Of a stretch of 64,000 bases of DNA, positions 47,427 to 63,949 are shown one piece after another; position 1 is the first letter of the stretch; every line of letters begins with the position of its first letter. The stretch comes from an uncultured Flavobacteriaceae bacterium (GTDB taxonomy: Bacteria > Bacteroidota > Bacteroidia > Flavobacteriales > Flavobacteriaceae). The position numbers and the translations under genes are program-made. The notes below the pieces were generated by a model. The model saw only the letters and a program-made list of their open reading frames with translations, did not search any database and was not told the DNA's origin. The stretch is from NCBI GenBank assembly GCA_947488345.1, contig CANKZQ010000003.1, positions 451,832 through 515,831 of the forward strand. The letters run 5' to 3'.

Positions 47427-47440
47427 TGCCATAATGGATA

Positions 47441-47476
47441 TATAGTTAATATTAACCATATTCCTACGTTGTATGC
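47441..47476 (+). other. attI-like primary recombination site
   Basis: 20-bp near-palindrome TATAGTTAATATTAACCATA (47441-47460), containing AACCATA as in the attC-like right arms, then TTCCTAC and crossover core GTTGTATGC (47468-47476), which starts cassette 1. Confidence 0.7.
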
Positions 47477-47500
47477 AATATGACCAAATTGTTATGATAA

Positions 47501-47974
47501 ATGAAAAAAACAAAACAATTAGCTAATCAATTTAGAGAAATAATCCTAAACGGAACTTGGATAGCAAACACCAATTATAAAGACCAATTAGAAAACTTAA
47601 GTTGGGAAGCTGCAACATCAAAGTTTGAGTCGCTTAATACCATTTCGGTACTAGCTCAACACGTCCATTACTATATTAACGGAATTAAAAATGTATTTAA
47701 TGGCGGAAATCTAGAAATAAGAGACAAATACAGTTTTGACTTTCCTGGAATAAAATCGCAAAACGAGTGGAAAGAATTCCTAATTAAATTTTGGGAAGAT
47801 GCGGAAAATCTAGCGGAATTGATTGAGCAATTACCCGACAAGAAATTAAACCAAAGCTTTGTGGATGATAAATATGGAACCTATCAAAGAAATATTGACG
47901 GAATAATTGAACATAGTTATTATCATCTCGGACAAATTGTATTGATAAAGAAGATTATTTTAAAGAATCATTAA
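47501..47974 (+). CDS. Cassette 1: DinB-like superfamily protein
   Basis: Four-helix DinB pattern: VLAQHVHYYINGIKNVFNGG ... GIIEHSYYHLGQIVLIKK. Confidence 0.7.
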   Translation: MKKTKQLANQFREIILNGTWIANTNYKDQLENLSWEAATSKFESLNTISVLAQHVHYYINGIKNVFNGGNLEIRDKYSFDFPGIKSQNEWKEFLIKFWEDAENLAELIEQLPDKKLNQSFVDDKYGTYQRNIDGIIEHSYYHLGQIVLIKKIILKNH

Positions 47975-47979
47975 ATACA

Positions 47980-48116
47980 GCATACAACAACGGCTATAAT
48001 TCATTGTGGCGGAATTTTCCACCGAAAATTCCTATCTTTCAATCATCGCTTGGTTCTCGCGGAATAGTCCTCGCGGACGATTCCACAACGAAACCATAGC
48101 CAAACCGTTGTAGGTA
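47980..48116 (+). repeat. attC-like site S1 (family A)
   Basis: R'' GCATACAAC (pairs with own cassette start GTTGTATGC), AAC, GGCTATAATT...AACCATAGCC, AAACC, R' GTTGTAGGTA. Confidence 0.9.
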
Positions 48117-48134
48117 ATTTGAAAACCAAGTTAA

Positions 48135-48911
48135 TTGAAAGAACATCGATATAAAATTCCTGGTCAAAATGGAGAATATGTGGTATTTGAAGCTGGAGAT
48201 TGCGAGAAAGTAAATCCCATAGAATATTATCAAAATATTTTCATTCCTCGCAACGTATCAATGTACCGCAGATTATATCTGGCAAAAGAACATAAGTTCA
48301 AACAGTTTGGTGCTAATTTGAGCATCATAAAACAAGAAGTTTTATTTCGGAAAAATGCGATTGCTGATTGGAAAAAATGGTTTCTTGAAAAATCAGCAAC
48401 TGAAATAAATCCTAATTATCTTGCTCTTTTAGAAAGTAAAACAAAAAACGAACAAAAAAAGCTACTTAAAGGAATTGAACTAACTACTTATGAACTATTT
48501 GCACTTATCGCAAAAGCTTATACCGATTATGGAATGTTGTTTTCCCAATATAGATATGAGCATACTCAAAAGGGAGTTGATGAAAAGGACTTAACAGAAT
48601 TTGCTCATCTTGAGGATAGCGGAAAAGTTATCACAATTAGAAAAACTAAACTATCTCAAGGACAACTTAAACAAGCGATTGAACACAGAGTTGTTTTGAT
48701 TGCAAAATTCATTGAAACGGAAGATGAATGGCATTGTTTTTTCACTAATTATAAAAGCTTAAATGGAAAAGAAATAACGTATAAAAGTGGAAAACCTCAT
48801 TATCATTACATTTCAGATAAATGGGGATTAACCAAAGAACAAGTGATAAAACAATTAAGTAGTAGAAGATATAAGCTACCATCAATGCCTCATTTGGACT
48901 TTAAAAGATAA
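48135..48911 (+). CDS. Cassette 2: hypothetical protein (TTG start)
   Basis: Intact 258-aa ORF filling the cassette. Confidence 0.7.
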   Translation: MKEHRYKIPGQNGEYVVFEAGDCEKVNPIEYYQNIFIPRNVSMYRRLYLAKEHKFKQFGANLSIIKQEVLFRKNAIADWKKWFLEKSATEINPNYLALLESKTKNEQKKLLKGIELTTYELFALIAKAYTDYGMLFSQYRYEHTQKGVDEKDLTEFAHLEDSGKVITIRKTKLSQGQLKQAIEHRVVLIAKFIETEDEWHCFFTNYKSLNGKEITYKSGKPHYHYISDKWGLTKEQVIKQLSSRRYKLPSMPHLDFKR

Positions 48912-48917
48912 AAAAAC

Positions 48918-49052
48918 TACCTACAACAACGTGTATAATTAATTACTACGGAATTCCTTCGCAGGAATTCGCTTGAATTAATTAACTTCGTCGTACGTCG
49001 GAAAATCCTAACGGATTTCCCGTAACTAACCATACACAAACCGTTGGCTGTA
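48918..49052 (+). repeat. attC-like site S2 (family B)
   Basis: R'' TACCTACAAC = revcomp of cassette 2 start GTTGTAGGTA; GTGTATAATTAATT...AACCATACAC; R' GTTGGCTGTA. Confidence 0.92.
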
Positions 49053-49154
49053 ATTTATAAGTCCGTTAACTAAGTCAAACTAATGTTTCACTCATTTCAC
49101 CTTTTTTAAAAGATTAATCGGAACTAGATTTGTGATGTTTTTAATGCACTGATT

Positions 49155-49652
49155 TTGAAAAAATATAGTATTCCGATTTTAGTTCTCTACATTTTTATTA
49201 CTTCTTGCTCGACCAATAAAGTAGTTGGAAAATATCAAACGAATTTTCCGACATACGGTAGATTTGGAAAAGTTCTGACCGTAAACTGTGACAGTACTTT
49301 TGTGCTGAATTTTAGCGGAGACTTTATGAATGACAATTCTTTCGGTAAATGGAAAGTGAGAAATGACTCTCTAATATTAAATTTTGACTCGATCAATTAT
49401 CCCAAAAGTAGATATAACGGAACAAGTTACTACTCAATAAAACGGAATAAACTGACCTCCTACTTTCCAATAACAAAAGAGAAATACAATGAATTAGTTG
49501 AACTAATTGAAAAAGAAGGAATGACGGATAGCCTTAAAATTGGAAATTATAGAAAATTTAGACGAACATCAGGAAAAACGTTAAAAAACTTCCAAGGAAA
49601 ATTGGGCAGACAATATTTCCAGAGAATAGAAAAATTTGAATGTAAACAATAA
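49155..49652 (+). CDS. Cassette 3: putative lipoprotein (TTG start)
   Basis: Lipobox FITSCST; intact ORF. Confidence 0.7.
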   Translation: MKKYSIPILVLYIFITSCSTNKVVGKYQTNFPTYGRFGKVLTVNCDSTFVLNFSGDFMNDNSFGKWKVRNDSLILNFDSINYPKSRYNGTSYYSIKRNKLTSYFPITKEKYNELVELIEKEGMTDSLKIGNYRKFRRTSGKTLKNFQGKLGRQYFQRIEKFECKQ

Positions 49653-49656
49653 AAAC

Positions 49657-49792
49657 TACAGCCAACAACGTGTATAATTAATTGCTGCGGAATTTCCTCG
49701 CAGGAAATTCACTTGAATTAATTAACTTGCCAATACGTTGGGAAAATCCTAACGGATTTCCCGCAACTAACCATACACAAACCGTTAGCAGC
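49657..49792 (+). repeat. attC-like site S3 (family B)
   Basis: R'' TACAGCCAAC pairs with GTTGGCTGTA at 49043; R' GTTAGCAGC. Confidence 0.92.
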
Positions 49793-49812
49793 AATATGAC
49801 GAAAAATTAAAA

Positions 49813-50505
49813 ATGGACTGGAGATTTAATACAATATGGTTCGAACAAATAAATCCTGAAGCAATTACTAACTGGGATTTTAAAGTGAAAAGGGAAGACA
49901 ACCTTAATTTTGAAAATATTCAATACGCAATACTTTGGTATTTTAAATATAAAGGAATTTCATTTGACCTTCTTCCTGAATCAAAGAGATTATTGTATTT
50001 GGAAATGAATTGGGCGAATTTTAAAGATTTAAATGGGATTGAGAAGTTCAAAAACCTTAAAAGACTAGAATTGCACTACTGTACTAAACTAGAAAATGAC
50101 TTTGGAATTTCTTCCTTAAAGAACACTCTTGAATTTTTACATATAAATCAGTCTAAAAAATTTCAACCCATGTTTGAATTTAATGAATTAAAAAACTTGA
50201 AAGTATTGCGGCTTAACTCTTGTGGAACTTTGGAAAATTTAGATTTTCTAAATCATTTCCCAAACTTAATCGACTTTCGATTTATCGATACAACAATATT
50301 AAACGGCGATCTAAACCCTATTTTAGAACACCCATCTATTCGTTCCGTCGGATTTAGCAATAAACGTCATTACAACTATAAAGATACTTATATTACAAAA
50401 GAATTGAATTTAAAAAGACCTGAGGAATTTAAAGAATATGTTCATAAAGGAGAATACTCTACGTTTAAATATAAAAATACAGCTGCTAACAACGTGTATA
50501 ATTAA
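49813..50505 (+). CDS. Cassette 4: leucine-rich-repeat-like protein ending inside the attC
   Basis: LKNLKRLELHYC, LKNLKVLRLNSCGTLENLDFLNHFPNLIDFRF; C-terminus AANNVYN* encoded by S4. Confidence 0.65.
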   Translation: MDWRFNTIWFEQINPEAITNWDFKVKREDNLNFENIQYAILWYFKYKGISFDLLPESKRLLYLEMNWANFKDLNGIEKFKNLKRLELHYCTKLENDFGISSLKNTLEFLHINQSKKFQPMFEFNELKNLKVLRLNSCGTLENLDFLNHFPNLIDFRFIDTTILNGDLNPILEHPSIRSVGFSNKRHYNYKDTYITKELNLKRPEEFKEYVHKGEYSTFKYKNTAANNVYN

Positions 50506-50614
50506 TTACTACGGAATTCCTTCTCAGGAATTCACTTGAATTAATTAACTTGTCAATACGTCGGAAAATCCTAACGGATTTCCCGTAACTAACCATACAC
50601 AAACCGTTACCTGC
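50482..50614 (+). repeat. attC-like site S4 (family B)
   Basis: R'' GCTGCTAAC pairs with GTTAGCAGC at 49784; R' GTTACCTGC. Confidence 0.92.
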
Positions 50615-50621
50615 AATAAGT

Positions 50622-51323
50622 ATGACCAATATTTCGGATTCAATTGGAAATTATGTTAATGATCAGAATCGCGAATTGTGGAATAACCTCAAGTCTAAAT
50701 ATCGATTCGAACTCTTTCATGATTCAAACGAATATTCTTGGAAAACACAAAGAGAAAATGGAGTTGTAATTATTGTCTGTCCGAATTTAGAAATTAGTTA
50801 TGCCTCTTTTACCCATGAATTACTTCATACCTATATTGAAGATAAAGGAATGACGGAATTTGAAACTTTTGAAGCTTCTTATAAGTATGATACTATTTTG
50901 GGAAATTTTGTGTTCTCTATGCTTTTCTCACGTTGTTATAATTTTTTTGCGCATAAAAAAATGTACCCTTATTTTAAACAAATGGGGTTTTCTGAATATG
51001 ATTTCGTATCAGATAGAATCAAATATTCGACTTTTCAGCACTTTAAGACGAAAATGTTATTCAGAATAAAAAAACTTCGAATTTTTGGTATAGAAACTTT
51101 TCTTGGAAATTTTTTCGAGCTTAAAAACAATGTTGTAAAAGAAGATATGGGAAAGTGTCAAAAAGGACTTGGAAAACTTAAAAAACTCCAACCAGAGCTA
51201 TATTCCATAGCGGACAGATTTGACAATATTTGGAAAGATCAAAAGGATTTGGACCTTCTTGTTCCATTTAATGATTTTAAGCATAACCTAATATTATGGC
51301 TTGGAAAAAATTACAGCAGGTAA
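50622..51323 (+). CDS. Cassette 5: protein with HExxH-type motif
   Basis: SYASFTHELLHTYIEDKGMTEFE; stop codon lies in R'' of S5. Confidence 0.65.
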   Translation: MTNISDSIGNYVNDQNRELWNNLKSKYRFELFHDSNEYSWKTQRENGVVIIVCPNLEISYASFTHELLHTYIEDKGMTEFETFEASYKYDTILGNFVFSMLFSRCYNFFAHKKMYPYFKQMGFSEYDFVSDRIKYSTFQHFKTKMLFRIKKLRIFGIETFLGNFFELKNNVVKEDMGKCQKGLGKLKKLQPELYSIADRFDNIWKDQKDLDLLVPFNDFKHNLILWLGKNYSR

Positions 51324-51450
51324 CAACGTGTATAATTAATTACTACGGAATTTCCTCGCAGGAAATTCACTTGAATTAATTAACTTGCCAATACGTTGGG
51401 AAAATCCTAACGGATTTCCCGCAACTAACCATACACGAACCGTTGGCAAC
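51316..51450 (+). repeat. attC-like site S5 (family B)
   Basis: R'' GCAGGTAAC pairs with GTTACCTGC at 50606; R' GTTGGCAAC. Confidence 0.92.
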
Positions 51451-51470
51451 AAGCTAAATACAATAATTAA

Positions 51471-51887
51471 ATGAAAAACATTCTTCTGATTTTATCATTG
51501 TTATTAATACTTGAATGTGACACGAAGAATGATGGAATCAAATATGGAACATTTGAATTGTATGAGAATGATAATATAGTTGGAACTATATATCGAATTA
51601 ATAATTATCAAATCGAAAAATATTTAGATGACTCTGAATTAATTGCTAGAATAGACTACAAAACTGACTCAACCTATTTGATGAGTGGTATAGAAGAAAC
51701 TCAAATTGGAATCGACTCAATTGTTTGGTTAACCACATATAGAGAAATTGATATAAATAAATATAAGCTTAAAGCAGTTCCGAATAACGTAAACATTAAT
51801 TATAAATATGATGCGACTCTTGTGAAAGTTGATAAAACTGTTCCCCTAAAGTATAGTGGAATATTGGACTCCCTGAATCGGAAATAA
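51471..51887 (+). CDS. Cassette 6: putative exported/lipoprotein
   Basis: N-terminal MKNILLILSLLLILECDTKN; intact ORF. Confidence 0.65.
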   Translation: MKNILLILSLLLILECDTKNDGIKYGTFELYENDNIVGTIYRINNYQIEKYLDDSELIARIDYKTDSTYLMSGIEETQIGIDSIVWLTTYREIDINKYKLKAVPNNVNINYKYDATLVKVDKTVPLKYSGILDSLNRK

Positions 51888-51894
51888 AAAGCCA

Positions 51895-52027
51895 GTTGCC
51901 AACAATGTGTATAATTAATTACTACGGAATTCCTTCGCAGGAATTCGCTTGAATTAATTAACTTGCCAGTACGTAGGAAAATCCTAACGGATTTCCCGCA
52001 ACTAACCATACACAAACCGTTGTACAC
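51895..52027 (+). repeat. attC-like site S6 (family B)
   Basis: R'' GTTGCCAAC pairs with GTTGGCAAC at 51442; R' GTTGTACAC. Confidence 0.92.
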
Positions 52028-52033
52028 AATTAG

Positions 52034-52540
52034 ATGAAAATTATAGATTTATACAGAATTGAAACCAAATCCTTTAAATCTAATTTGAAGAAAACGGAAA
52101 TAGAAAATAAACTCATAAATGAGTTTAACCTCAATCAGAACAGGGATTTTCGATCTATTTTTAAAAAAGAGTTAAATGAATATAGAGGCACATTAAATCG
52201 CAAAAGTTTTATAATCAAACAAAACAATGCGCTCACCTCAATTAATGACGGAAATTACTTTTTCTTTACTCGAATTAATGGAGAAATATTGGACAATGGA
52301 ACCGAACGGATTATAAAAATAAATGCAGAATTGAGTGAGGGTACTATTGGAATGGTTATTGCGTCTGCTCCAATTTATATACTAATTTTAATATTTAGCA
52401 ACTTATGGGTTGGAATTACCTCTCTCTTATTCCTGATTTTTCTTTATTTATATGGTGTAAGAAATGTAAAATCCGATTTTAAGGTCTTTGAAACACATTT
52501 AAAACAAAAAATAACTGTGTACAACAACGTGTATAATTAA
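52034..52540 (+). CDS. Cassette 7: membrane protein ending inside the attC
   Basis: Two TM segments; C-terminus ITVYNNVYN* encoded by S7. Confidence 0.65.
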   Translation: MKIIDLYRIETKSFKSNLKKTEIENKLINEFNLNQNRDFRSIFKKELNEYRGTLNRKSFIIKQNNALTSINDGNYFFFTRINGEILDNGTERIIKINAELSEGTIGMVIASAPIYILILIFSNLWVGITSLLFLIFLYLYGVRNVKSDFKVFETHLKQKITVYNNVYN

Positions 52541-52650
52541 TTACTACGGAATTCCTTCGCAGGAATTCACTTGAATTAATTAACTTCGTCTTACGTCGGA
52601 AAATCCTAACTGATTTTCCGCAACTAACCATACACAAACCGTTACCACAC
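52517..52650 (+). repeat. attC-like site S7 (family B)
   Basis: R'' GTGTACAAC pairs with GTTGTACAC at 52019; R' GTTACCACAC. Confidence 0.92.
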
Positions 52651-52659
52651 ATTTGTTCT

Positions 52660-53310
52660 ATGAAGCCTATGATTTACAAACCTGATATTCGAATAAATAA
52701 TCCGATCTATCTTTTGAAACAGGTAGAAGAATTATTGAAAATAGCAAATTCTCATAAAAATTCATCTTCTTTAATTTATGCAGCGTTGGAATGTAGAATA
52801 GCTCTTGAATTAATGGATTTGAATTTTCTATTACATTCAGTAACTGCAACAGAAAGAGAACAAATAATTATCGATTCCAAACCGTATAAAGGAATTGACA
52901 GAGTTAACAAGAAAGTTGGAGCTTTAAAACAAAAGTATCAATATTTTCTTCAAGCCGTTTGCGAATTGTTGGATGTCGGAATTGAACATTATGATTATAA
53001 AAAATCAAAAGATTTACAGTACGACGTTAGTACTTATATTCATTCGTATCATATGACAAATGAGGAATTGGAATATGAATCTGAAGATATGAAAAAATGT
53101 TATGATCTAATTTTGGAAGTGGACGGATTTATCAAATCCTCGATGCCAGAAAAAGACGGAACATATACAATGCTTGGAATGGAAATAGCATCAATGCCGG
53201 AAGAAGATAAACAAGTTTTGAATGAATGGAAAGTGTCGAACACGATGACTTATGAAGAAATGAAAGAAACTCTCTCTGAAAATATAAGATTACGAAGAGA
53301 AAAAAAATAA
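52660..53310 (+). CDS. Cassette 8: hypothetical protein
   Basis: Intact 216-aa helical ORF. Confidence 0.65.
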   Translation: MKPMIYKPDIRINNPIYLLKQVEELLKIANSHKNSSSLIYAALECRIALELMDLNFLLHSVTATEREQIIIDSKPYKGIDRVNKKVGALKQKYQYFLQAVCELLDVGIEHYDYKKSKDLQYDVSTYIHSYHMTNEELEYESEDMKKCYDLILEVDGFIKSSMPEKDGTYTMLGMEIASMPEEDKQVLNEWKVSNTMTYEEMKETLSENIRLRREKK

Positions 53311-53317
53311 TAAAAAC

Positions 53318-53451
53318 GTGTGGTAACAACGTGTATAATTAATTACTACGGAATTCCTTCGCAGGAATTCGCTTGAATTAATTAACTTCGTCCTACGTCG
53401 GAAAATCCTAACTGATTTTCCGTAACTAACCATACACAAACCGTTACCTGC
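53318..53451 (+). repeat. attC-like site S8 (family B)
   Basis: R'' GTGTGGTAAC pairs with GTTACCACAC at 52641; R' GTTACCTGC. Confidence 0.92.
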
Positions 53452-53461
53452 AAGCTGAAAA

Positions 53462-53782
53462 ATGATAATTGGATATTTTGACTACATAATTATTGGAATT
53501 TTATTACTCTTAAATATCAAATTCTGGAAAACAAAGTTTGAAGGAAAAACTGGTTGTTGGGTTGGTGGTATTTTATTCGGATTTATATTACCACTAATTT
53601 CATTGACAATAGAAGTTCAACGTGTAAAAATAACCATTGGAATTACGGACAGTTTCGAAGTTCTATATACGTATTTGAAGTTTCCTACTTACTGGATAAT
53701 CGGAATTGTTCAATCAATTATTACAGGAATCAAATTGAGCTATATGGAACCCCATTCTGATGAATCTGACGGAATTGAATAA
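53462..53782 (+). CDS. Cassette 9: small membrane protein
   Basis: 106 aa, hydrophobic segments. Confidence 0.6.
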   Translation: MIIGYFDYIIIGILLLLNIKFWKTKFEGKTGCWVGGILFGFILPLISLTIEVQRVKITIGITDSFEVLYTYLKFPTYWIIGIVQSIITGIKLSYMEPHSDESDGIE

Positions 53783-53794
53783 AAATAAAAGCCA

Positions 53795-53929
53795 GCAGGT
53801 AACAACGTGTATAATTAATTGCTTCGGAATTTCCTCGCAGGAAATTCACTTGAATTAATTAACTTCGTCGTACGTCGGAAAATCCTAACGGATTTCCCGC
53901 AACTAACCATACACAAACCGTTGTACTTC
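53795..53929 (+). repeat. attC-like site S9 (family B)
   Basis: R'' GCAGGTAAC pairs with GTTACCTGC at 53443; R' GTTGTACTTC. Confidence 0.92.
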
Positions 53930-53950
53930 ATTATAACCAACCGCTAACCA

Positions 53951-54751
53951 ATGATAAAATTCTTTCGGAAAATTCGTCAAAACTTACTTATGGAAAACAA
54001 AACTGGAAAGTATTTTAAATATGCTATTGGAGAAATTGTGCTAGTTGTTATTGGAATACTCATTGCTCTTCAAATTAATACTTGGAATCAAAATAGACAA
54101 GACCGTGAACAGGAACAGCAAATATTAATGCAGTTACTTAATGAATACGAGAACAATTTAATTCAAATAAATCAAAAAATATTCATCAGAAACGAAACTA
54201 TTTTATCTGCATACAAATTACTAAAATATAAAAATGATGAGACGCATAACATTGTTGCGGATAGTTTTAATTTACATTTAGGCAGATTAATTACACGACC
54301 TACATTCGATCCAGAACTTGGTGTGACCAAAGAACTTACTAGTTCAGGAAAATTATACCTCATTACTAATAATTCTTTAAGAAACAACATTACTTCTTTT
54401 CCTAGTTTTTTGGGTGAATTACGCGAAGAGGAAATGGTGACTTTTAATATGGCAGAAGAACGATTTACTCCATTTATTATGGAACATTATCAATTTGGGA
54501 AAATTATCGGAGAAATGTTCAATGACGAGCAAATTAAAAATCAAAATACCTTTGTAGTTGAAGAAGGTTACAATTCTGTTATCGATTTATTTCCCCAAGT
54601 TGATTTCAAACCCTTACTCCATCATACAGATTTTGAAGATTATTTAGCATTAATGATAAGTAATACTGGTTACACCAACGAACAATCTGAAGGTGTTAGA
54701 AACAAAATTGAAGAAATTATTTCACTAATAAACGGAGAATTAAAAAAATAA
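53951..54751 (+). CDS. Cassette 10: DUF6090-like membrane protein
   Basis: MIKFFRKIRQNLLMENKTGKYFKYAIGEIVLVVIGILIALQINTWNQNR. Confidence 0.8.
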   Translation: MIKFFRKIRQNLLMENKTGKYFKYAIGEIVLVVIGILIALQINTWNQNRQDREQEQQILMQLLNEYENNLIQINQKIFIRNETILSAYKLLKYKNDETHNIVADSFNLHLGRLITRPTFDPELGVTKELTSSGKLYLITNNSLRNNITSFPSFLGELREEEMVTFNMAEERFTPFIMEHYQFGKIIGEMFNDEQIKNQNTFVVEEGYNSVIDLFPQVDFKPLLHHTDFEDYLALMISNTGYTNEQSEGVRNKIEEIISLINGELKK

Positions 54752-54756
54752 CGAAA

Positions 54757-54891
54757 GCACAACAACGGCTATAATTCATTGTGGCGGAATTTTCTACTGA
54801 AAATTCCTACCTTTAAATCGTCGCTTGGTTCTCGCGGAATGGTCCTAGCGGACAATTCCACAACGAAACCATAGCCCAACCGTTACCACAC
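54757..54891 (+). repeat. attC-like site S10 (family A)
   Basis: R'' GCACAAC pairs imperfectly with GTTGTACTTC at 53920; R' GTTACCACAC. Confidence 0.85.
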
Positions 54892-54893
54892 AT

Positions 54894-55460
54894 TTGAAAC
54901 TTAGAAAAATTAGATATATAATAATAGTTGTTTTAGGGTATTTTTTACTCAAACCTGTTGTACCCATTGATGATTATTGCAGCGGCCTTGGTGCAGCGAT
55001 GAATTTTTTTTTCTTTGGTGCTTTAATCCTTTTTGTACTGCTCATCTTGACAATATTCGATGTTGTTGGAATGATAAAAAGTAAAGTTAAATTCGATTTT
55101 ATTCCTCTTTTAATAACCATGACTATCGGAATTATATATTTCTCAATTTTAGAACTGGACGATCGAAAATTTTGGACGAAAAGGACTTTGACTGGCCGGA
55201 TTGAGGTAGAAGCTACTCCAAAAAGTGGAGTACTTAAATTGTATAAAAACGGAACTTTTGCCGCGACTTTACATAATGCCGATAATAGTTGTACTTTTCA
55301 AGGTAAATATGCTATTCATGACAATAAGCTTGAACTAAAAAGGCTTGATTTATCTGATATGACTCAAAGAGTCTTTACAACTCAGTATTTTCTTGACAAG
55401 AACAACAAAACTCTTAATCCAATAGACAAAAGTTACGGAATAGTTGAAATAAGAAAATAA
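54894..55460 (+). CDS. Cassette 11: membrane protein (TTG start)
   Basis: Intact 188-aa ORF, several TM segments. Confidence 0.65.
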   Translation: MKLRKIRYIIIVVLGYFLLKPVVPIDDYCSGLGAAMNFFFFGALILFVLLILTIFDVVGMIKSKVKFDFIPLLITMTIGIIYFSILELDDRKFWTKRTLTGRIEVEATPKSGVLKLYKNGTFAATLHNADNSCTFQGKYAIHDNKLELKRLDLSDMTQRVFTTQYFLDKNNKTLNPIDKSYGIVEIRK

Positions 55461-55464
55461 AACA

Positions 55465-55601: not shown

Positions 55602-55714
55602 ATTCTAGAGCAGTCATAATTAAAACCGTTTCACTTAATGAAAAGGTTATTTCACTCAATTTGAGTTTTTTAAAATCAAATCTCCAACTATATTTAAAGG
55701 CAAATCACTTAGCA

Positions 55715-56383
55715 ATGAAAAAAAACATTCTCATATTCACTTTTTTTTTTACATCATTAGCTATTGCTCAAGACAAAAGTTTTGAATATCCAATTGAAAA
55801 AAATGGAGAGGAAAGTTACACTTTCCAATATTTCAAAAAACTCCTGACCGATATGGAATTGGATTCATTGAAAACCTCTGAAAATGAATTTCATTTTAGA
55901 TATCTTACTCCTCGGCATATTGCAGAAATTTGGAAAACTAAAAATGGAAAACTTAAAGGAAAACTTATAAGTTTCGTTGAAAGACAACCAGATTCGATGG
56001 ACTCAAAATACTTGAATAATAAAACTAAGAAGGAATATTTTATTCAAGTAAGACAAATGAATAATAAAAATGTAAATCAGATATATAAAAAATTATCCTT
56101 ATGGAAAATTGATGAAATTGAATCATCGACAATGCCTGAAGGTGGAAATTCTAATATCAGCGGAGTATTAGCGGAATTTTCTGGCAAAAGATCTTATAAA
56201 TTTAAGGAGTTTTGGATTCCCAATGATCAAGAAAAACAAAGTAACTCTGATAAAAAGATCGCTGAATTTACTAAATTAATGAATTCGCTTATAGATTATG
56301 ATAAACTATATAAAAATTTGATTGACAATTTGCCTAAGGGATGTTTCAATATGGTAAATGGATTTGTGGAATGTAATAACTAA
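55715..56383 (+). CDS. Cassette 12: exported protein
   Basis: MKKNILIFTFFFTSLAIAQDKSFEYP signal peptide; ORF track starts earlier at 55661. Confidence 0.7.
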   Translation: MKKNILIFTFFFTSLAIAQDKSFEYPIEKNGEESYTFQYFKKLLTDMELDSLKTSENEFHFRYLTPRHIAEIWKTKNGKLKGKLISFVERQPDSMDSKYLNNKTKKEYFIQVRQMNNKNVNQIYKKLSLWKIDEIESSTMPEGGNSNISGVLAEFSGKRSYKFKEFWIPNDQEKQSNSDKKIAEFTKLMNSLIDYDKLYKNLIDNLPKGCFNMVNGFVECNN

Positions 56384-56520
56384 TGCCAACAACGGCTATA
56401 ATTCATTGCGGCGGAATTTCCTAAACGGAAATTCTTATCTTGCAATGATGGCTTGGTTCTCTCGGAATAGTCCATGCGGACAATTCCCCAACGAAACCAT
56501 AGCCCAACCGTTGGCGTTAA
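56381..56520 (+). repeat. attC-like site S12 (family A)
   Basis: R'' TAATGCCAAC pairs with GTTGGCATTA at 55592; R' GTTGGCGTTAA. Confidence 0.92.
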
Positions 56521-56527
56521 TTTAAGA

Positions 56528-56941
56528 ATGAAGAACTTAATAATATATTTCTTACTCATTTTTACACTTTTGAGTTGTAAGCAAAAAGTTGTTGATGGAA
56601 TTGAAATTGGACATACGCTTTACACAAATCAAACATTAAAACAGAATACTAAGCTGATTAAACTTATCTCTCAAACGCTGAATAAAGAATCAAACGCATT
56701 ATCTGATCTAACTGAATTTTGGTGCGGTGGTGGGGCTGGATGTTATGATCTTGGAATAATTACGTCTGAAATAGTTTACAATATGGGCGAATCGGAATTT
56801 ATCAAAATTGCAAGGGAATTAGAATCTGATCGAAAAAATTCTCTATTTGGATTATTAAACGTCGGACTAGAATATGGCTATGAACATGAAAGAAAAATTG
56901 AAACGGAATTTCCTAATCTGAACGAATTGCTAACTGAATAA
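56528..56941 (+). CDS. Cassette 13: putative lipoprotein
   Basis: MKNLIIYFLLIFTLLSCKQKV lipobox; the ORF track extension MRTIPQRNHSPTVG is attC-encoded. Confidence 0.7.
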   Translation: MKNLIIYFLLIFTLLSCKQKVVDGIEIGHTLYTNQTLKQNTKLIKLISQTLNKESNALSDLTEFWCGGGAGCYDLGIITSEIVYNMGESEFIKIARELESDRKNSLFGLLNVGLEYGYEHERKIETEFPNLNELLTE

Positions 56942-56947
56942 AAAAAC

Positions 56948-57084
56948 TAACGCCAACAACGGCTATAATTCATTGCGGCGGAATTTCCAAAACGGAAATT
57001 CTTATCTTGCAATGATGGCTAGTGTTTCTCGGAATGTCCTAGCGGACAATTCCACAACGAAACCATAGCCCAACCGTTATGTGC
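56948..57084 (+). repeat. attC-like site S13 (family A)
   Basis: R'' TAACGCCAAC pairs with GTTGGCGTTA at 56510; R' GTTATGTGC. Confidence 0.92.
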
Positions 57085-57110
57085 AATTTGAAAACAATCC
57101 TCAATAAATA

Positions 57111-58877
57111 ATGACCGAAAAAGAGATAATCACTATATCCACAACTTTAATAAAGCCAGTACTTGATGTTTTTGTTAAACCAAAATTGATTAAGCTCAAA
57201 ACTATATTGCTTGAGAAAAATCAAGAGAATAAGGTTATTCATTTTGATATAACTGATAGTGAATTCGAAAAATACTTAAATCGCAATTTTAACAAAATTG
57301 TTTATTTAAATACTCTAGTTTTTCCTAACCAACAAATAAACCTATTAGAATTATATCATCCTTTAACTTTAAATAAAGACTTTTTAATAAAAAAGGTACA
57401 AAGAAAGAATCTAAAAGTTCAGGATGAGTCATTATTAGATAAAGAAATTGAGGACAAAACGGAGAAGTTCCTTATAGATGATAAAATAAATTTAAATTTT
57501 ATTGAGTCACATAGAAGATTATTGATTAGAGACAGGGCTGGAATGGGTAAGTCTACTATGATGAAATACCTAAATTTTCAAGTATTAGCAAAAGAAATTG
57601 GAATCCCAATATTCATTGAATTAAGGAGATTAAGCGATAAAAATGATATACTGAATGAAATACTTTCGCTAATAAATGGTGATAGCTGTTCTTTTAATAA
57701 AATATTTATATCTAAACTTTTAGAATTAGGAGAGTTTGTTTTCTTTCTAGATGGATTTGATGAAATTAAATCTGAATCTAAAGAAACAATAACCAATAAC
57801 ATACAAAGATTCATCGCTGAAAATGAAAACAATATCTTTATAATATCTTCTCGCCCAGAGGATTCATTATACTCATTTGGTAATTTTCAACTCTTTAGTA
57901 TAGAACCATTAACAAAGCCAGATTATGAAAATCTATTAAGAAAGTATGATTTTATTGGCGGTTCTTCAATCGCAGATAAAATTATCAATGATTTAAAAAC
58001 CAGTAATAAGGAAATTCAAAATTTCCTTGGTAATCCATTCCTAGTATCATTATTATATCGTTCCTATAATTTTAATAACCATATACCAAGTAAAAGGTCT
58101 ACTTTTTACGATGAATTATATATGGCTTTATTTAAATCGCACGACCTATCGAAAAATGCTTTTAAGAGGCCGAAATTATCAGACCTAGATGTTTTAGATT
58201 TTAGGCTTATACTAAGAGATTTTGCTTTTCACTCTTCATTAAATGGAGAGATTGAATATACTTATAGCGACTTATCATCATACATTACACAAGCGAAAGA
58301 GCGAATAGATAATCTTACATTTAAAACATCTCACTACATTGAGGATTTAGAAACTAATGTTCCTCTTCTTGTGAAAGAAGGAGTCAATTATAGATGGTCT
58401 CACAAATCAATCCAAGATTTTTTTACAGCAGAATTTATAGATAGTGACACTAATAAAGTTGAAATTTTAGAGACTATTTTTGAATCTTTTGATTCTAATT
58501 TTTTAAATATTTTATACTTCTATTTTGAGCTAGATTATAAAACATTTAAGAATGTAATCATCAAAAATGTAGTACAATTATTGGTTGATGGTTTTCAAAA
58601 TACTAATCATATGGTCAATGAATACGACGAAACTAATTTAAGAATATGGCAATTTGCTCAAAACTCACGAACACTGACTCAAATTACTGGTATTATAGAG
58701 CTTCTTATTGAAAAAGAAGTTTTTTATAACTTAGTTAAGGTGAATCCTATTTATAATTTGAGTTTAAAAGAATTTCCAAGAATAGAAAATTGCAGACAAA
58801 TCTTAGAAGAAATTGATAATCAAAAAAGTAAACGATTTAAAATTAAAGAATTAATTAAAAAAAGAAAAAGCACATAA
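57111..58877 (+). CDS. Cassette 14: NACHT-type NTPase
   Basis: Walker A LLIRDRAGMGKSTMMKYL; Walker B FVFFLDGFDEIKSE; IFIISSRPEDSLYSF; RWSHKSIQDFFTAEF. Confidence 0.85.
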   Translation: MTEKEIITISTTLIKPVLDVFVKPKLIKLKTILLEKNQENKVIHFDITDSEFEKYLNRNFNKIVYLNTLVFPNQQINLLELYHPLTLNKDFLIKKVQRKNLKVQDESLLDKEIEDKTEKFLIDDKINLNFIESHRRLLIRDRAGMGKSTMMKYLNFQVLAKEIGIPIFIELRRLSDKNDILNEILSLINGDSCSFNKIFISKLLELGEFVFFLDGFDEIKSESKETITNNIQRFIAENENNIFIISSRPEDSLYSFGNFQLFSIEPLTKPDYENLLRKYDFIGGSSIADKIINDLKTSNKEIQNFLGNPFLVSLLYRSYNFNNHIPSKRSTFYDELYMALFKSHDLSKNAFKRPKLSDLDVLDFRLILRDFAFHSSLNGEIEYTYSDLSSYITQAKERIDNLTFKTSHYIEDLETNVPLLVKEGVNYRWSHKSIQDFFTAEFIDSDTNKVEILETIFESFDSNFLNILYFYFELDYKTFKNVIIKNVVQLLVDGFQNTNHMVNEYDETNLRIWQFAQNSRTLTQITGIIELLIEKEVFYNLVKVNPIYNLSLKEFPRIENCRQILEEIDNQKSKRFKIKELIKKRKST

Positions 58878-59007
58878 CACCGTGTATAATTAATTGCTTG
58901 ATGGTGTTTAAAGAGTGTCACGGAAATCCTGGCGGATTTCCTTACTCCTACGCTTTTTTGTTATCTTAGTCGCTTACGCAACTAACCATACACAAACCGT
59001 TAGGCAC
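58870..59007 (+). repeat. attC-like site S14 (family B arms, divergent centre)
   Basis: R'' GCACATAAC pairs with GTTATGTGC at 57076; arms GTGTATAATTAATTGCTT...CGCAACTAACCATACAC; R' GTTAGGCAC. Confidence 0.88.
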
Positions 59008-59022
59008 AATATTAGAACCTTA

Positions 59023-59781
59023 ATGAAAAAGCATAAATTCAAAACAAATGAAAGATACGCTGTATGGTTGCATCATGAAAAACGATGCTGGTTATGTAAA
59101 GATCCTTTGAGATTGGCAGAATCCACTGTCGATCATGTAATTTCCGAATCCGTATTATCTGATGGTGAACTTTTTAAAAGTATTCGCGAAAATTATGGGC
59201 TGGATAAAGAGTTTGAAATTAATGGTTTTGAAAACTGGCTTCCTAGTCATCAACGTTGTAATCAGTTAAAGTCGAATAAAGCTTTGAAATACACACCCGG
59301 ATTTCAATTAATTCTCGAACGACTAATTAAACTTGCTCCTAAGGTTAAACGGACTTCAGAACTAATTCTTGAAGGAATTCAAAAAGACAAATTAATGGTC
59401 AAAATTGTGGCGGCTATTGAAGAAGGCCAAATAACTGCAGAAGAACTAAATATGTTTATCAAAAGAATTTTAGGCACCACAGAGTCGGAAAACATGAATA
59501 TGATCCGTCTTGATAACGGCTATTGGTTACATATTGATGACATTGCAGCGGAAGGCTTATGTCAATGTGAAAGAGAGCTTTGTGTTGACAGTGATAAAAG
59601 GAATTACTGTTATTGGAGTAGTTCTAAATCAGGGTGGATAATTCGAAAACAGCTTTTCTGGAAATGTTATGAGGAAATTATAAAGTGTTCGAGATGTGGC
59701 GAAAACCATAAGCGTGGTGAAATCGGATATCTCAATACTTGCAAAAGACCATTCTCGGATCAAATGTCTCAATCAGATTAA
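59023..59781 (+). CDS. Cassette 15: HNH endonuclease-like protein
   Basis: CWLCKDPLRLAESTVDHVISES...ENWLPSHQRCNQLKSNK; ORF track start 58915 lies in the attC. Confidence 0.8.
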   Translation: MKKHKFKTNERYAVWLHHEKRCWLCKDPLRLAESTVDHVISESVLSDGELFKSIRENYGLDKEFEINGFENWLPSHQRCNQLKSNKALKYTPGFQLILERLIKLAPKVKRTSELILEGIQKDKLMVKIVAAIEEGQITAEELNMFIKRILGTTESENMNMIRLDNGYWLHIDDIAAEGLCQCERELCVDSDKRNYCYWSSSKSGWIIRKQLFWKCYEEIIKCSRCGENHKRGEIGYLNTCKRPFSDQMSQSD

Positions 59782-59808
59782 AGGTTTGATCTTCTTTTAT
59801 AAAATACA

Positions 59809-59947
59809 GTGCCTAACAACGGCTATAATTCATTGCGGCGGAATTTCCTAAACGGAAATTCTTATCTTGCAATGATGGCTTGGTTCTCTCGGAATGGTCC
59901 TAGCGGACAATTCCACAACGAAACCATAGCCCAACCGTTGTAAGTAA
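59809..59947 (+). repeat. attC-like site S15 (family A)
   Basis: R'' GTGCCTAAC pairs with GTTAGGCAC at 58999; R' GTTGTAAGTAA. Confidence 0.92.
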
Positions 59948-59956
59948 TTTAAAAAA

Positions 59957-60460
59957 ATGAAGTTAAAATTTATATTAGGAGTTGTTTTCTGTATAATTCT
60001 ATCAAATCTGTCAGCCCAAGTTTCGGACTCAATAAATCAGAAAATTATAGGAAAGTGGAATTATATAAAAACAATTGATAAAGAAAATAATTCTGTTGAG
60101 TACATTATTCGTAAATATCCAGGCGGAACTGAAATGAAAATTAAAACTAACGGTCCAAAAATTATAATAAATAAGAATGGGACATATAGTAAACAATTCA
60201 CTGAAGAAAATATTGATACTGGAAATTGGAAAATGAAATCGGAAAATGAAATTGAGTATGAAATGGTTATTCCTAAAAATTCTCGACAAGGAAAATTAAT
60301 TGCAGCGACACAAAAAAGCATCAATAAGAAGTGGAGGACAGACAAAAATGGAAATTTTCTTGATGCTTCAACAAATACGATTCTTTCTTTATCCAAATCT
60401 GAAATGACTATTGAATATGAAAAAGATTACGTCATGATTTTTAAAAGAGAAGCTCAATAA
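59957..60460 (+). CDS. Cassette 16: exported protein, lipocalin-like
   Basis: Signal peptide; IIGKWNYIKTIDKENNSVEYI. Confidence 0.65.
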   Translation: MKLKFILGVVFCIILSNLSAQVSDSINQKIIGKWNYIKTIDKENNSVEYIIRKYPGGTEMKIKTNGPKIIINKNGTYSKQFTEENIDTGNWKMKSENEIEYEMVIPKNSRQGKLIAATQKSINKKWRTDKNGNFLDASTNTILSLSKSEMTIEYEKDYVMIFKREAQ

Positions 60461-60464
60461 AAAC

Positions 60465-60601
60465 TACTTACAACAACGGCTATAATTCATTGTGGCGGAA
60501 TTTTCCTTCGGAAATTCCTACCTTTAAATAATCGCTTGGTTCTCGCGGAATGGTCCTAGCGGACAATTCCACAACGAAACCATAGCCCAACCGTTGTAGC
60601 C
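60465..60601 (+). repeat. attC-like site S16 (family A)
   Basis: R'' TACTTACAAC pairs with GTTGTAAGTA at 59937; R' GTTGTAGCC. Confidence 0.92.
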
Positions 60602-60615
60602 AATTTGAAAATGTT

Positions 60616-61080
60616 ATGAAAAAAATATTAATTCTAATTTGTTTGCTCTCTATAACTTCAAAAAGTGAAGGACAAAAGTCGAACCCAAAGATGGTCGAAA
60701 TCAAGAATCAATTAGTGCCTGAAGCCGTTGAAATAGGAAAAAACTATGGATTAACATTAAATTTTACTGATAAGTCTATTAAAAGTGTTGAAATAATATT
60801 GGATGACATTCATAAGGAATATAAAAAATCGAAAAATGACGAAGGACTTACTGGACTCGCTTATATTTTCGGATTTTATATTATTGAGACTATTGAAAGA
60901 AATCACGGAAAGGGAAGAATGGAACAAGATGACCCAGAAATTGGAAAGAACTCGTTCCCTTTTTACTGGAATAATTCAACCTTGTTTCCCATTGCTTGGT
61001 GTCAGAAACGGATTTTTGATGGAGAGGCTGATGACGTCTCATTTAAATACCAAGTTGCAGTACTACAAAAGAAAAAATAA
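60616..61080 (+). CDS. Cassette 17: exported protein
   Basis: Signal-peptide-like MKKILILICLLSITSKSEGQ; intact ORF. Confidence 0.65.
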   Translation: MKKILILICLLSITSKSEGQKSNPKMVEIKNQLVPEAVEIGKNYGLTLNFTDKSIKSVEIILDDIHKEYKKSKNDEGLTGLAYIFGFYIIETIERNHGKGRMEQDDPEIGKNSFPFYWNNSTLFPIAWCQKRIFDGEADDVSFKYQVAVLQKKK

Positions 61081-61084
61081 AAAC

Positions 61085-61222
61085 TGGCTACAACAAAGGC
61101 TATAATTCATTGTGGCGGAATTTTCCATGGAAAATCCCTACCTTTCAATCATCGCTTGGTTCTCGCGGAATGGTCCTAGCGGACAATTCCACAACGAAAC
61201 CATAGCCAAACCGTTACAAACC
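61085..61222 (+). repeat. attC-like site S17 (family A)
   Basis: R'' TGGCTACAAC pairs with GTTGTAGCCA at 60593; R' GTTACAAACC. Confidence 0.92.
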
Positions 61223-61651
61223 ATTTCGCTCAAAAAATTCCATGAAGTTTAAAATTGTAAAATCTGATATTTCAAGAAGTTAATTCCTTTTCGGATATAT
61301 TTGAATCTATCAATCTGTATACTAAATAGAAAGGACTCACCATTATAAATAAAATTATCAAAACTGGGCTTGTAAGGGCTAGGAATACATGAATTTTTTT
61401 CATAGGTCTTACGTTAAGTTAATATGTAGCAAAGTTGGTGTATTTTTTGGCCTATAAAAACATGTAGATTATCCTATTTGTGGTTTATATTGCCATAAAT
61501 AAAGATCAAAATGCTTTTCAAAAAAATAGAATAAAAGAAATTGGTATGGAAATATCGGAATTGAATAACGGAACGCAATTGTCACGCAAGCAACGACCCA
61601 ACGGAATTGACAATCGGAACATGAAAAATGGGATAAAATAAGATAAAAAAC
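61214..61651. other. Cassette 18: no convincing ORF (non-coding or decayed cassette)
   Basis: Only very short + frames (MKFKIVKSDISRS*; MEISELNNG...GIK*); bounded by intact S17 and S18. Confidence 0.7.
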
Positions 61652-61789
61652 GGTTTGTAACAACGGCTATAATTCATTGCGGCGGAATTTCCTACTCGGA
61701 AATTCTTATCTTGCAATGATGGCTAGTGTTTCTCGGAATGTCCTAGCGGACAATTCCACAACGAAACCATAGCCCAACCGTTGTAACAC
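61652..61789 (+). repeat. attC-like site S18 (family A)
   Basis: R'' GGTTTGTAAC pairs with GTTACAAACC at 61213; R' GTTGTAACAC. Confidence 0.92.
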
Positions 61790-61794
61790 ATTAA

Positions 61795-62037
61795 ATGAAC
61801 GTAATAAAAGACTTCAAAAACGGATTTATATATGTTATAGAAAAATACCCTATAATTTCTGGAATCGGATTTTTAATTATTGGGGGAATTCTATTAGCTT
61901 ATAAGTTGAATAAAAAGGAATCGCTCAAAGAGGCGTGGAATGGAATTCTTTCTTGGAATGCGTTTATTAGCATTTGGGCGGTAATCTTAATGTCTTTTAT
62001 TTTCGGTCTAATTCTTTTGACGAAAAATATGTTTTGA
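61795..62037 (+). CDS. Cassette 19: small membrane protein
   Basis: 80 aa with two hydrophobic segments. Confidence 0.6.
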   Translation: MNVIKDFKNGFIYVIEKYPIISGIGFLIIGGILLAYKLNKKESLKEAWNGILSWNAFISIWAVILMSFIFGLILLTKNMF

Positions 62038-62066
62038 ATCGTTAAAGATTATTAATATGCTAAAAC

Positions 62067-62204
62067 GTGTTACAACAACGGCTATAATTCATTGCGGCGG
62101 AATTTTCTACGGAAAATCCCTACCTTTAAATCATCGCTTGGTTCTCGCGGAATAGTCCTTGCGGACAATTCCACAACGAAACCATAGCCCAACCGTTGGC
62201 AATA
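62067..62204 (+). repeat. attC-like site S19 (family A)
   Basis: R'' GTGTTACAAC pairs with GTTGTAACAC at 61780; R' GTTGGCAATA. Confidence 0.92.
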
Positions 62205-62209
62205 ATTTA

Positions 62210-62989
62210 ATGAAAAAAATATTTTTACTTTCTGTTATCCTATTTTCTATATTTTCTTGTCAAAATAATTCTTTAAAAAAAGATTTTATAGGCAATTGGA
62301 GCACTTCCTCAGATGATCCAAATTATGATTTAAATATAGATGTTCAATTCTTTAATGATTCCATGGTGGTGGATAACTCATTATTTCTTGAAAATTATTC
62401 AACCAAATGGCAAGTCAAAGATTCAAAGATTGAAGGAACTATATTAAGAAGTACTAAATATTTTGAACAACCTAATTTTATAAGTGATTATAAATTCAGT
62501 TTTGAAAAAGATACTCTTTACATGAAACGTGCAAATGACTCAATGCCCTATATTAGATATTTAAAAATTAAAAATGGGTACAAATATTTCGAAAATAAAA
62601 TTGGTTTAAATATTAAACTTCCTAAAACAGATAAGGAATTAAAACAAAATCGGAATAGACAAAGAAGATTTAATATTTATGTAAGCTATAATGATGGCAA
62701 GCTAGTAGCAAAAAGCAGTAGTGATTTTCATAGAGCAAATAATCTAGATAAAATAACGTCGCAGGCTTTTGCTTTTTGGGCCCACCAAGGTCGAGATCCA
62801 GATTATAATAATTTTCAATTCAATTTATTCACCGATAAAAGTATTGATGAATTTAAGATTGATTCCGTAAAAAATTTACTGAAATCGGGTCCTTTTAAAA
62901 GAATTTTTCGCGTTTATACAAATGAAAAACATAATTATGAAAAAACAGCCTGGAAAGATAAAATAAAATGGTTTGGTTTATATGAATAA
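62210..62989 (+). CDS. Cassette 20: putative lipoprotein
   Basis: MKKIFLLSVILFSIFSCQNN lipobox; ORF track start 62159 is attC-derived. Confidence 0.7.
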   Translation: MKKIFLLSVILFSIFSCQNNSLKKDFIGNWSTSSDDPNYDLNIDVQFFNDSMVVDNSLFLENYSTKWQVKDSKIEGTILRSTKYFEQPNFISDYKFSFEKDTLYMKRANDSMPYIRYLKIKNGYKYFENKIGLNIKLPKTDKELKQNRNRQRRFNIYVSYNDGKLVAKSSSDFHRANNLDKITSQAFAFWAHQGRDPDYNNFQFNLFTDKSIDEFKIDSVKNLLKSGPFKRIFRVYTNEKHNYEKTAWKDKIKWFGLYE

Positions 62990-62992
62990 AAC

Positions 62993-63130
62993 TATTGCCA
63001 ACAACGGCTATAATTCATTGCGGCGGAATTTCCTAAACGGAAATTCTTATCTTGCAATGAAGGCGTGGTCTCTCGGAATAGTCCTCGCGGACGATTCCGC
63101 AACGAAACCATAGCCCAACCGTTAGGTGCA
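62993..63130 (+). repeat. attC-like site S20 (family A)
   Basis: R'' TATTGCCAAC pairs with GTTGGCAATA at 62195; R' GTTAGGTGCA. Confidence 0.92.
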
Positions 63131-63142
63131 ATAATACTCAAC

Positions 63143-63838
63143 ATGTCAAGAACAAGCAGCAAAGAAGACAATTTTATGAATGGGCTCTGGATGGATTACC
63201 AAGGTTTCACCCTATTCAAAACGGATATAATAATTGACTATCTAAAGGAATTTGAGAATTATTTAGAAAATAAAACTCAGGAAATTGAAAGTAAAATCTT
63301 AGAATGGCAAAAATCTGAAAAGGAACATGAATACTCTGGTGCCGATTACTATGAAGAAGACTATTTGAATTACCAAATTTATTATCGACAATTAAAACTT
63401 GAAAGTGTTTTCCTTAGCTCGTATGCTTCATTCGAACATTTCTTGAAAAATATGACCAAATCTTATCAACAATATTTCGATTTACAAATTGGTGCAGAGG
63501 ATTTAAGTGGCAGGAATTATATAGCAAAATCGAAAAAATACTTGGAAAAGGTTATAGGGTTAAATTTAGTTGGTACAGATTCTATTTGGAATCTAATAAT
63601 AAAATATCAAGCAATAAGAAATAAAATAGTTCATAACGATTCAAGAATTGGATTACAAGATAAGAATATAGCTAGCCAAATAGCCGGAATTAGTGGAGTC
63701 TCTATTAATAATAATAAAATTATCTTAATGAATAAGGATTTTATAATTTCATTCTGGAAGTTATTCGATGAATATATTGAGAAAATTTTTACTGCAACAA
63801 GAGAAAAAATAACTGCACCTAACACCGTGTATAATTAA
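63143..63838 (+). CDS. Cassette 21: HEPN-like protein ending inside the attC
   Basis: SSYASFEHFLKNMTKSYQQYFDL...LIIKYQAIRNKIVHNDSRIG (RNxxxH); C-terminus APNTVYN* from S21. Confidence 0.65.
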   Translation: MSRTSSKEDNFMNGLWMDYQGFTLFKTDIIIDYLKEFENYLENKTQEIESKILEWQKSEKEHEYSGADYYEEDYLNYQIYYRQLKLESVFLSSYASFEHFLKNMTKSYQQYFDLQIGAEDLSGRNYIAKSKKYLEKVIGLNLVGTDSIWNLIIKYQAIRNKIVHNDSRIGLQDKNIASQIAGISGVSINNNKIILMNKDFIISFWKLFDEYIEKIFTATREKITAPNTVYN

Positions 63839-63949
63839 TTGCTGGGGAATTTCCTCACCGGAAATTCGCTTGAATTAATTAACTTGCTCGTACAGCGGAA
63901 AATCGTAACGGATTTTCCGCAACTAACCATACACAAACCGTTGTGTTTA
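63814..63949 (+). repeat. attC-like site S21 (family B)
   Basis: R'' TGCACCTAAC pairs with GTTAGGTGCA at 63121; R' GTTGTGTTTA begins cassette 22, which is cut by the window edge. Confidence 0.9.

Follow-up and report, generated by a model that had tools for sequence, protein, structure and literature searches.

Tyrosine recombinases that exchange two pairs of strands normally require homology across the whole overlap (6-8 bp), and integrons avoid overlap homology by using one folded strand. Integrons, which capture genes and disseminate antibiotic resistance, have hitherto been defined by their integrase, IntI. In their attC sites, which recombine as the bottom strand and contain extrahelical bases, only AAC and GTT are conserved together with 9-11 consecutive complementary bases (PMC2727003). 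The integrase gene of Treponema integrons is co-directional with the array and transcribed toward attI (PMC3607928), and among Bacteroidetes, IntegronFinder 2.0 identified one complete integron, in Salinibacter (PMC9024848). Here, we describe an array of gene cassettes in an uncultured Flavobacteriaceae bacterium; the array lies in the terminal 64 kb of contig C3 in a 3.8-Mb draft genome, and this 64-kb stretch is referred to as the window. We consider it highly probable that these cassettes form a large integron-like array on the chromosome, with about 95 sites in the genome, and that its recombinase is not IntI.

The array resembles the IntI-dependent chromosomal integrons, i.e. the Vibrio VCR superintegron and the IntI arrays of other Bacteroidota classes, in its AAC and GTT cores, L boxes and unequal spacers, in the complementarity between the arms of the same cassette (9-15 bp), and in having one gene per cassette, one orientation, an attI-like site beside the recombinase gene and shared cassettes with exact limits. 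By contrast, the recombinase lacks the IntI additional domain, falls outside the IntI clade and has an extra N-terminal domain; the attI-like site is palindromic and lies past the stop of a recombinase gene that is co-directional with the array; and covariance models of the two site families (R1 for the sites described here, R2 for IntI-linked attC) do not find each other. By these comparisons, the system would work like an integron, yet it falls outside the family defined by IntI.

Organisation of the array

The array (47468-63942) consists of 21 complete units of 415-1923 bp, all on the plus strand, and begins at G47468, 41 nt past the stop of a tyrosine recombinase gene. The initial annotation had claimed the number, lengths and common strand of the units and the array start right after the recombinase gene, together with the near rule of one open reading frame (ORF) per unit and a CCGTTR core at each unit start; these features are confirmed here. 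Each unit closes with a structured site that spans 121-126 nt from the AAC to the GTT core, and both cores, AACAM..TATAATT on the 5' side and CATA..CCGTTR on the 3' side, are present in all 21 sites (47986-63942). In 20 of the 21 units, a single plus-strand ORF occupies 80-98% of the space before the site; in unit 18, no credible ORF was found. Because the window ends where contig C3 ends (C3:515831), the array is cut rather than finished.

Unit 1, 47469-48107 (+); site 1, AAC to GTT, 47986-48109; ORF 47501-47974, weakly DUF1572-like; own arms 9 bp
Unit 2, 48108-49043 (+); site 2, 48925-49045; ORF 48135-48911; own arms 10 bp
Unit 3, 49044-49784 (+); site 3, 49664-49786; ORF 49155-49652, lipoprotein-like; own arms 10 bp
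Unit 4, 49785-50606 (+); site 4, 50488-50608; ORF 49813-50505, leucine-rich repeats below cut-off; own arms 9 bp
Unit 5, 50607-51442 (+); site 5, 51322-51444; ORF 50622-51323; own arms 9 bp
Unit 6, 51443-52019 (+); site 6, 51901-52021; ORF 51471-51887; own arms 9 bp
Unit 7, 52020-52641 (+); site 7, 52523-52643; ORF 52034-52540; own arms 10 bp
Unit 8, 52642-53443 (+); site 8, 53325-53445; ORF 52660-53310; own arms 10 bp
Unit 9, 53444-53920 (+); site 9, 53801-53922; ORF 53462-53782; own arms 9 bp
Unit 10, 53921-54882 (+); site 10, 54761-54884; ORF 53951-54751 (DUF6090); own arms only 5 bp
Unit 11, 54883-55592 (+); site 11, 55471-55594; ORF 54894-55460; own arms 9 bp; second copy in contig C7
Unit 12, 55593-56510 (+); site 12, 56388-56512; ORF 55661-56383; own arms 10 bp
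Unit 13, 56511-57076 (+); site 13, 56955-57078; ORF 56528-56941; own arms 10 bp
Unit 14, 57077-58999 (+); site 14, 58876-59001; ORF 57111-58877 (NACHT NTPase); own arms 9 bp
Unit 15, 59000-59937 (+); site 15, 59815-59939; ORF 59023-59781, HNH-like by eye, no Pfam match; own arms 9 bp
Unit 16, 59938-60593 (+); site 16, 60472-60595; ORF 59957-60460; own arms 10 bp
Unit 17, 60594-61213 (+); site 17, 61092-61215; ORF 60616-61080; own arms 10 bp
Unit 18, 61214-61780 (+); site 18, 61659-61782; no credible ORF; own arms 10 bp
Unit 19, 61781-62195 (+); site 19, 62074-62197; ORF 61795-62037; own arms 10 bp
Unit 20, 62196-63121 (+); site 20, 63000-63123; ORF 62210-62989; own arms 10 bp
Unit 21, 63122-63940 (+); site 21, 63821-63942; ORF 63143-63838; own arms 10 bp
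Unit 22, start only, 63941-64000 (+); cut by the contig end

The structure is palindromic, so that the antisense strand is useless as a control for the unit finder; shuffled DNA was used instead, and 990 kb of it contained no generic chain of such units. With a loose chain finder, as many as 7-8 units were chained by chance, and only units with arms of at least 9 bp were used afterwards.

Anatomy of the sites

In 20 of the 21 window units, the opening 9-10 bases are complementary to the end of that same unit and not to the end of its neighbour. Own-arm pairing totals 197 bp; when unit starts were permuted against unit ends in 100,000 trials, the mean was 98.8 bp (sd 7.5) and the maximum 136 bp, and thus no permutation reached the observed value. 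Position 11 is always A, mostly facing C, and this limits the stems to 10 bp. The sole exception is unit 10, in which one of the first ten bases is off compared with its paralogues (GTTGTACTTC for GTTGTGCTTC). Across about 35 loci, pairing of at least 8 bp with the own end was detected in 305 of 354 units and with the neighbour's end in 24.

Two site subtypes, GTGTAT/ATACAC and GGCTAT/ATAGCC, alternate in the array and differ by a paired change, i.e. the inner stem covaries. The middle of site 14 is divergent (58.8 bits, versus 119-136 for the other sites). With DNA folding parameters, the bottom strand of the own site was more stable than the top strand in all 21 window sites; over the full set, this held for 301 of 306 sites, with a mean difference of 3.4 kcal/mol compared to 0.1 in random segments. 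Moreover, the spacers are unequal (3 nt versus 5-6 nt). No match to the sites was found in Rfam. By this anatomy, with R''/R' carrying AAC/GTT, with L''/L', and with folded arms that come from one cassette, the sites can be read as attC.

The initial annotation had described the sites as non-canonical in two respects. The departure from GTTRRRY stands, as this motif is present at R' in only 17 of 306 units (A never occurs at position 5, nor T at position 6); it is not decisive because the motif is also rare in the IntI-linked arrays of this phylum. The supposedly unusual length of the stem does not stand, since attC normally has 9-11 complementary bases with only AAC and GTT conserved (PMC2727003), and the arms are 9-15 bp in IntI-linked arrays of other Bacteroidota. 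That account of what is unusual was therefore half right and overlooked the main oddity, i.e. that the recombinase is not IntI. Even beside true IntI genes, a strict GTTRRRY/RYYYAAC finder returned next to nothing, and it is thus no substitute for IntegronFinder.

Cassettes shared between arrays and genera

An all-against-all comparison of 396 units gave 54 similar pairs; wherever the neighbours of both members could be compared, they nearly always differed. When a cassette recurs almost unchanged (97-100% identity) in another array or genus, its own site comes with it (98-100% identical) and the similarity breaks at GTT on both sides, with identity past the upstream site and beyond the GTT mostly at background level. 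For instance, the copy of unit 11 in contig C7 is 99.8% identical over the unit and 99.2% over the site, while its flanks are 53% identical and its neighbours different; similarly, a cassette common to two genera (L057, L060) is 97% identical with a site identity of 100% and flanks at 54-65%. In a genome of the same genus (G120), the matching chromosomal place contains neither recombinase nor array. Two tRNA genes upstream in the window (45595-45790) are kept in the same-genus genome and are there followed by other genes. Judged from these comparisons, cassettes appear to have been gained, lost and moved with GTT as their limit, both between species and between arrays. In total, own-arm pairing, the exact limits of shared cassettes, the attI-like junction described below and presence or absence between congeneric species strongly support the initial proposal of an integron-like cassette array.

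Repeats of two subtypes, 121-126 nt long and hairpin-forming, could also be scattered intergenic palindromic repeats, REPIN/RAYT-like or mini-transposons, rather than parts of cassettes. However, they lie on one strand, are clustered in arrays with one gene per interval, and the own-arm pairing spans each gene; moreover, in REPIN/RAYT elements or miniature inverted-repeat transposable elements the repeat moves as a unit, whereas the segments that moved here are gene plus site. We regard this explanation as very improbable.

In three pairs (L058/L081, L059/L092, L081/L106), the cassette body is 80-88% identical and the arms are kept, while the central site sequence is unrelated. These pairs look as if the site had been exchanged, which could bear on the likeness of sites within a genome. 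DUF6090 cassettes (53921-54900 in the window; L089, L106, L109) have the first ~170 bp in common (83-85%) and not the remainder; this suggests an exchange of gene halves within this cassette family. The NACHT NTPase cassette (57111-58877) has a distant likeness to antiphage NLR proteins (EruA, far below cut-off). A PADLOC search of the cassette proteins returned nothing solid.

The recombinase

Tyrosine recombinase, 46302-47426 (+); 374 aa from ATG 46302 (alternative start TTG 46269); upstream of the array and co-directional with it
N-terminal domain of the recombinase, residues 1-75, 46302-46526 (+); predicted beta-beta-alpha-beta-beta-alpha-beta; present in relatives
attI-like palindrome ATATAGTTAATATTAACCATAT, 47440-47461 (+); contains one mismatched pair; lies 6 nt ahead of the insertion point
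Putative attI insertion core TCCTACGTT, 47462-47470 (+)

The catalytic set of the recombinase is intact (R233, K258, H323, R326, H349 and Y358). XerA, XerD and XerH are its closest kin: the best NCBIfam match is NF040815 (XerA type, 224.8 bits), and the best matches in the Protein Data Bank (PDB) include XerA and XerC-like proteins. Xer recombinases act on double-stranded dif sites; here, by contrast, there is an array of variable structured sites.

With sites that are attC by anatomy, the locus could also be an ordinary integron with a divergent IntI, and VchIntIA (2a3v) is indeed among the best matches in PDB sequence and fold searches. The co-directional layout alone is not new, as it is known from Treponema, where the integrase is a true IntI (PMC3607928); in IntI-linked arrays of the same phylum as the window, the array diverges from intI. 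However, four observations argue against an IntI. First, in alignments with IntI1 and VchIntIA, the IntI additional domain was absent from the recombinase and from every array recombinase aligned, with residues 278-298 standing opposite residues 180-241 of VchIntIA. Second, the recombinase scored 194 bits against the integron-integrase model TIGR02249, which has a cut-off of 265 and gave 507 for the IntI1 control. Third, in a quick recombinase tree of 70 rows with many open forks, IntI formed one fully supported clade with the array recombinases outside. Fourth, no IntI was found in 251 Flavobacteriaceae genomes, whereas a search of the phylum, which serves as the positive control, detected true IntI above cut-off in 84 of 297 genomes, nearly all from other classes. 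These 84 genomes exceed the single Bacteroidetes integron of IntegronFinder 2.0, from which the taxonomic scope may differ. Altogether, a divergent IntI is unlikely; as far as the tree can be read, a single common origin with IntI may lie deeper.

A predicted N-terminal alpha/beta domain is common to this recombinase group and to a second group described below. HARP and DUF5710 gave weak matches to it in a few members only, and this identity was dropped to a lead. In phage and viral contigs, all recombinases detected were distant and lacked the N-terminal part; no search for sites was made in their flanks.

The attI-like junction and a possible mechanism

In about 20 loci, the first cassette begins 25-104 nt past the stop of a co-directional recombinase gene. 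In the first recombinase group, to which the window recombinase belongs, a palindrome of ~20 bp, mostly perfect, is followed by 5-8 nt (often CCAATT or CCATAT) and then GTT; the second group has ATATAACCA or a similar sequence before GTT. This arrangement is consistent with an attI beside the recombinase gene at the start of the first cassette. By analogy with IntI, crossover presumably occurs at G47468^T47469.

Each cassette comprises a single gene together with an attC-type site of its own. We suggest that the bottom strand of this site folds into a hairpin, in which the first and last ten bases of the cassette form the outer stem (GTTNNNNNNN / NNNNNNNAAC) and the L boxes the inner stem. The recombinase would join the GTT of the folded site on a free circular cassette to the GTT beside the palindromic attI, 25-104 nt past its own gene, and recombination between two sites would excise cassettes. 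Because the sites and attI have only GTT in common, an ordinary two-strand exchange is unlikely; a single-strand exchange followed by replication, as in integrons, would be the likely route. The folding bias, the conserved spacers and the memory of own arms point to a single folded strand. We infer that the adjacent recombinase is the agent and that the exact bond is G^TT. Should a recombinase that lacks the IntI domain carry out the integron reaction, this domain would not be necessary, as it has long been held to be, and structures could be compared.

Distribution and association with the recombinase

The initial annotation had proposed a scan of genomes with a covariance model of the sites, and model R1 was used for this purpose. 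In the genome studied here, R1 gave 101 matches, of which ~95 are in arrays and six isolated (C1, C6); thus, the genome-wide scatter that would speak against cassettes was not seen. Arrays are present at both ends of C3, at the end of C7, and on C10, C11 and C12, which are array-only contigs. R1 sites were detected in 174 of the 251 Flavobacteriaceae genomes; as few candidates were scored in each, this count is a minimum. In a phylum sample they were detected in 19 of 396 genomes, and of these 19, 16 are Flavobacteriaceae. In the fetched loci, R1 matches are on one strand. Close relatives of the recombinase (at least 56% identity over most of the length) are encoded by 44 of the 251 family genomes, 41 of which also have R1 sites. 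In a Persicobacter plasmid (L099), a recombinase is present and no sites were found.

The window sites are all missed by R2, the model of IntI-linked attC from this phylum. This shows that the site families differ and not how IntegronFinder behaves, because R2 also misses the class 1 attC in R388. That the lineage could be missed by canonical-attC searches, as suggested initially, is plausible. Single R1-type sites were found in three genomes of other families of the phylum (G294, G394, G417), and G394 also encodes a true IntI; cassette exchange between the R1-type and IntI systems is possible there.

The association of recombinase and array also bears on a further explanation, i.e. that the array is real and moved by housekeeping XerC/XerD or by an enzyme encoded elsewhere, with the adjacent recombinase as a passenger. 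Other tyrosine recombinases are encoded in the genome, and some arrays have no recombinase nearby, in which they resemble clusters of attC sites without an integrase (CALIN); unlike these arrays, CALIN are defined by canonical attC models and IntI. By contrast, adjacency, direction and the attI-like junction are conserved in about 20 loci and two recombinase groups, and the active-site residues of the adjacent recombinase are kept. We therefore consider a passenger recombinase quite unlikely. Several observations nevertheless weigh against an integron-like system operated by the adjacent recombinase. Several of the arrays in this genome lie on contig ends that encode no recombinase; conversely, a few recombinases lack a nearby array (L085, L086), and a second recombinase group, 35-45% identical, also heads arrays (e.g. 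L076, L079), so that enzyme and site are paired by position only. Moreover, long own arms are missing from 14% of units, in some cases because a site escaped the finder. The features on which we base the integron-like reading, i.e. cassette anatomy, own-arm memory, the limits of moved cassettes, the attI-like site, the recombinase family and the distribution, are apparent from the DNA and point to a cassette system.

No description of this system was found in the literature searched, which did not include preprints and subscription journals. Common as it is (174/251 Flavobacteriaceae), the system has no name in that literature, and a large reservoir of mobile genes has thus escaped notice.

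tet(X) and other resistance cassettes

A concrete case is tet(X), which encodes resistance to a last-resort drug by inactivating tigecycline and for which an origin in Flavobacteriaceae is accepted (PMC7494873); the accessible tet(X) literature does not mention cassettes or integrons for this gene. A plasmid search with the recombinase identified truncated copies in Acinetobacter plasmids, which correspond to the xerD gene adjoining tet(X3) (PMC8635130). The Acinetobacter xerD is a relative of the array recombinase with 53% identity and a cut 5' end. It is followed by a palindrome (ATACGCCATTTGGCGTAT), ~8 nt and then GTTATGTGCC, with which the tet(X3) unit starts at GTT; between tet(X3) and tet(X5) contexts, homology begins exactly at that GTT. 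The xerD-tet(X3)-res-ISCR2 region thus shares with the arrays a recombinase relative, a palindrome and a start at GTT, and differs in that its recombinase is 5'-truncated and onward movement is by ISCR2.

The tet(X2) unit is 1327 bp long, has the arms GTTATGTGCC/GGCACATAAC and a 125-nt site, and is present in five plasmids from Bacteroides, Empedobacter (two species), Riemerella and Sphingobacterium, where it is flanked by three different upstream and five different downstream sequences. In other records, homology ends at GTT, and in tet(X4) of E. coli the end is cut short (GGCACATAA). The aadS and catB units have own arms of 10 bp, and estT, which fits the pattern by eye, is probably a cassette.

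Resistance cassettes (tet(X2), aadS, catB, probably estT; tet(X3)), L326 12930-8940; L331 6834-8161; L328 6834-8161; L329 6286-8633; L327 157-1484; L096/L097; L323; own arms 9-10 bp, attC-like sites

R1 does not find the tet(X)-type plasmid sites, and we place them in the system on the basis of their anatomy and the xerD relative. Read in this way, tet(X) is a cassette of this kind, and the cassette system appears to be how it became mobile. A broader scenario is a second rise, or a takeover, of the integron lifestyle by a Xer-like recombinase that lacks the IntI domain and reads folded attC with its own N-terminal domain, with arrays across Bacteroidota and mobilisation of tet(X), estT and aadS; we advance it tentatively, as a serious possibility with slightly less than even support. 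A separate origin would raise the novelty beyond that of an integron variant.

In a plasmid array of Chryseobacterium (L098), an ORF-less cassette of 172 bp with 12-bp arms is inserted three times (7104-7276, 9199-9371 and 11580-11752). A similar ORF-less insert lies between estT and tet(X5) in L323.

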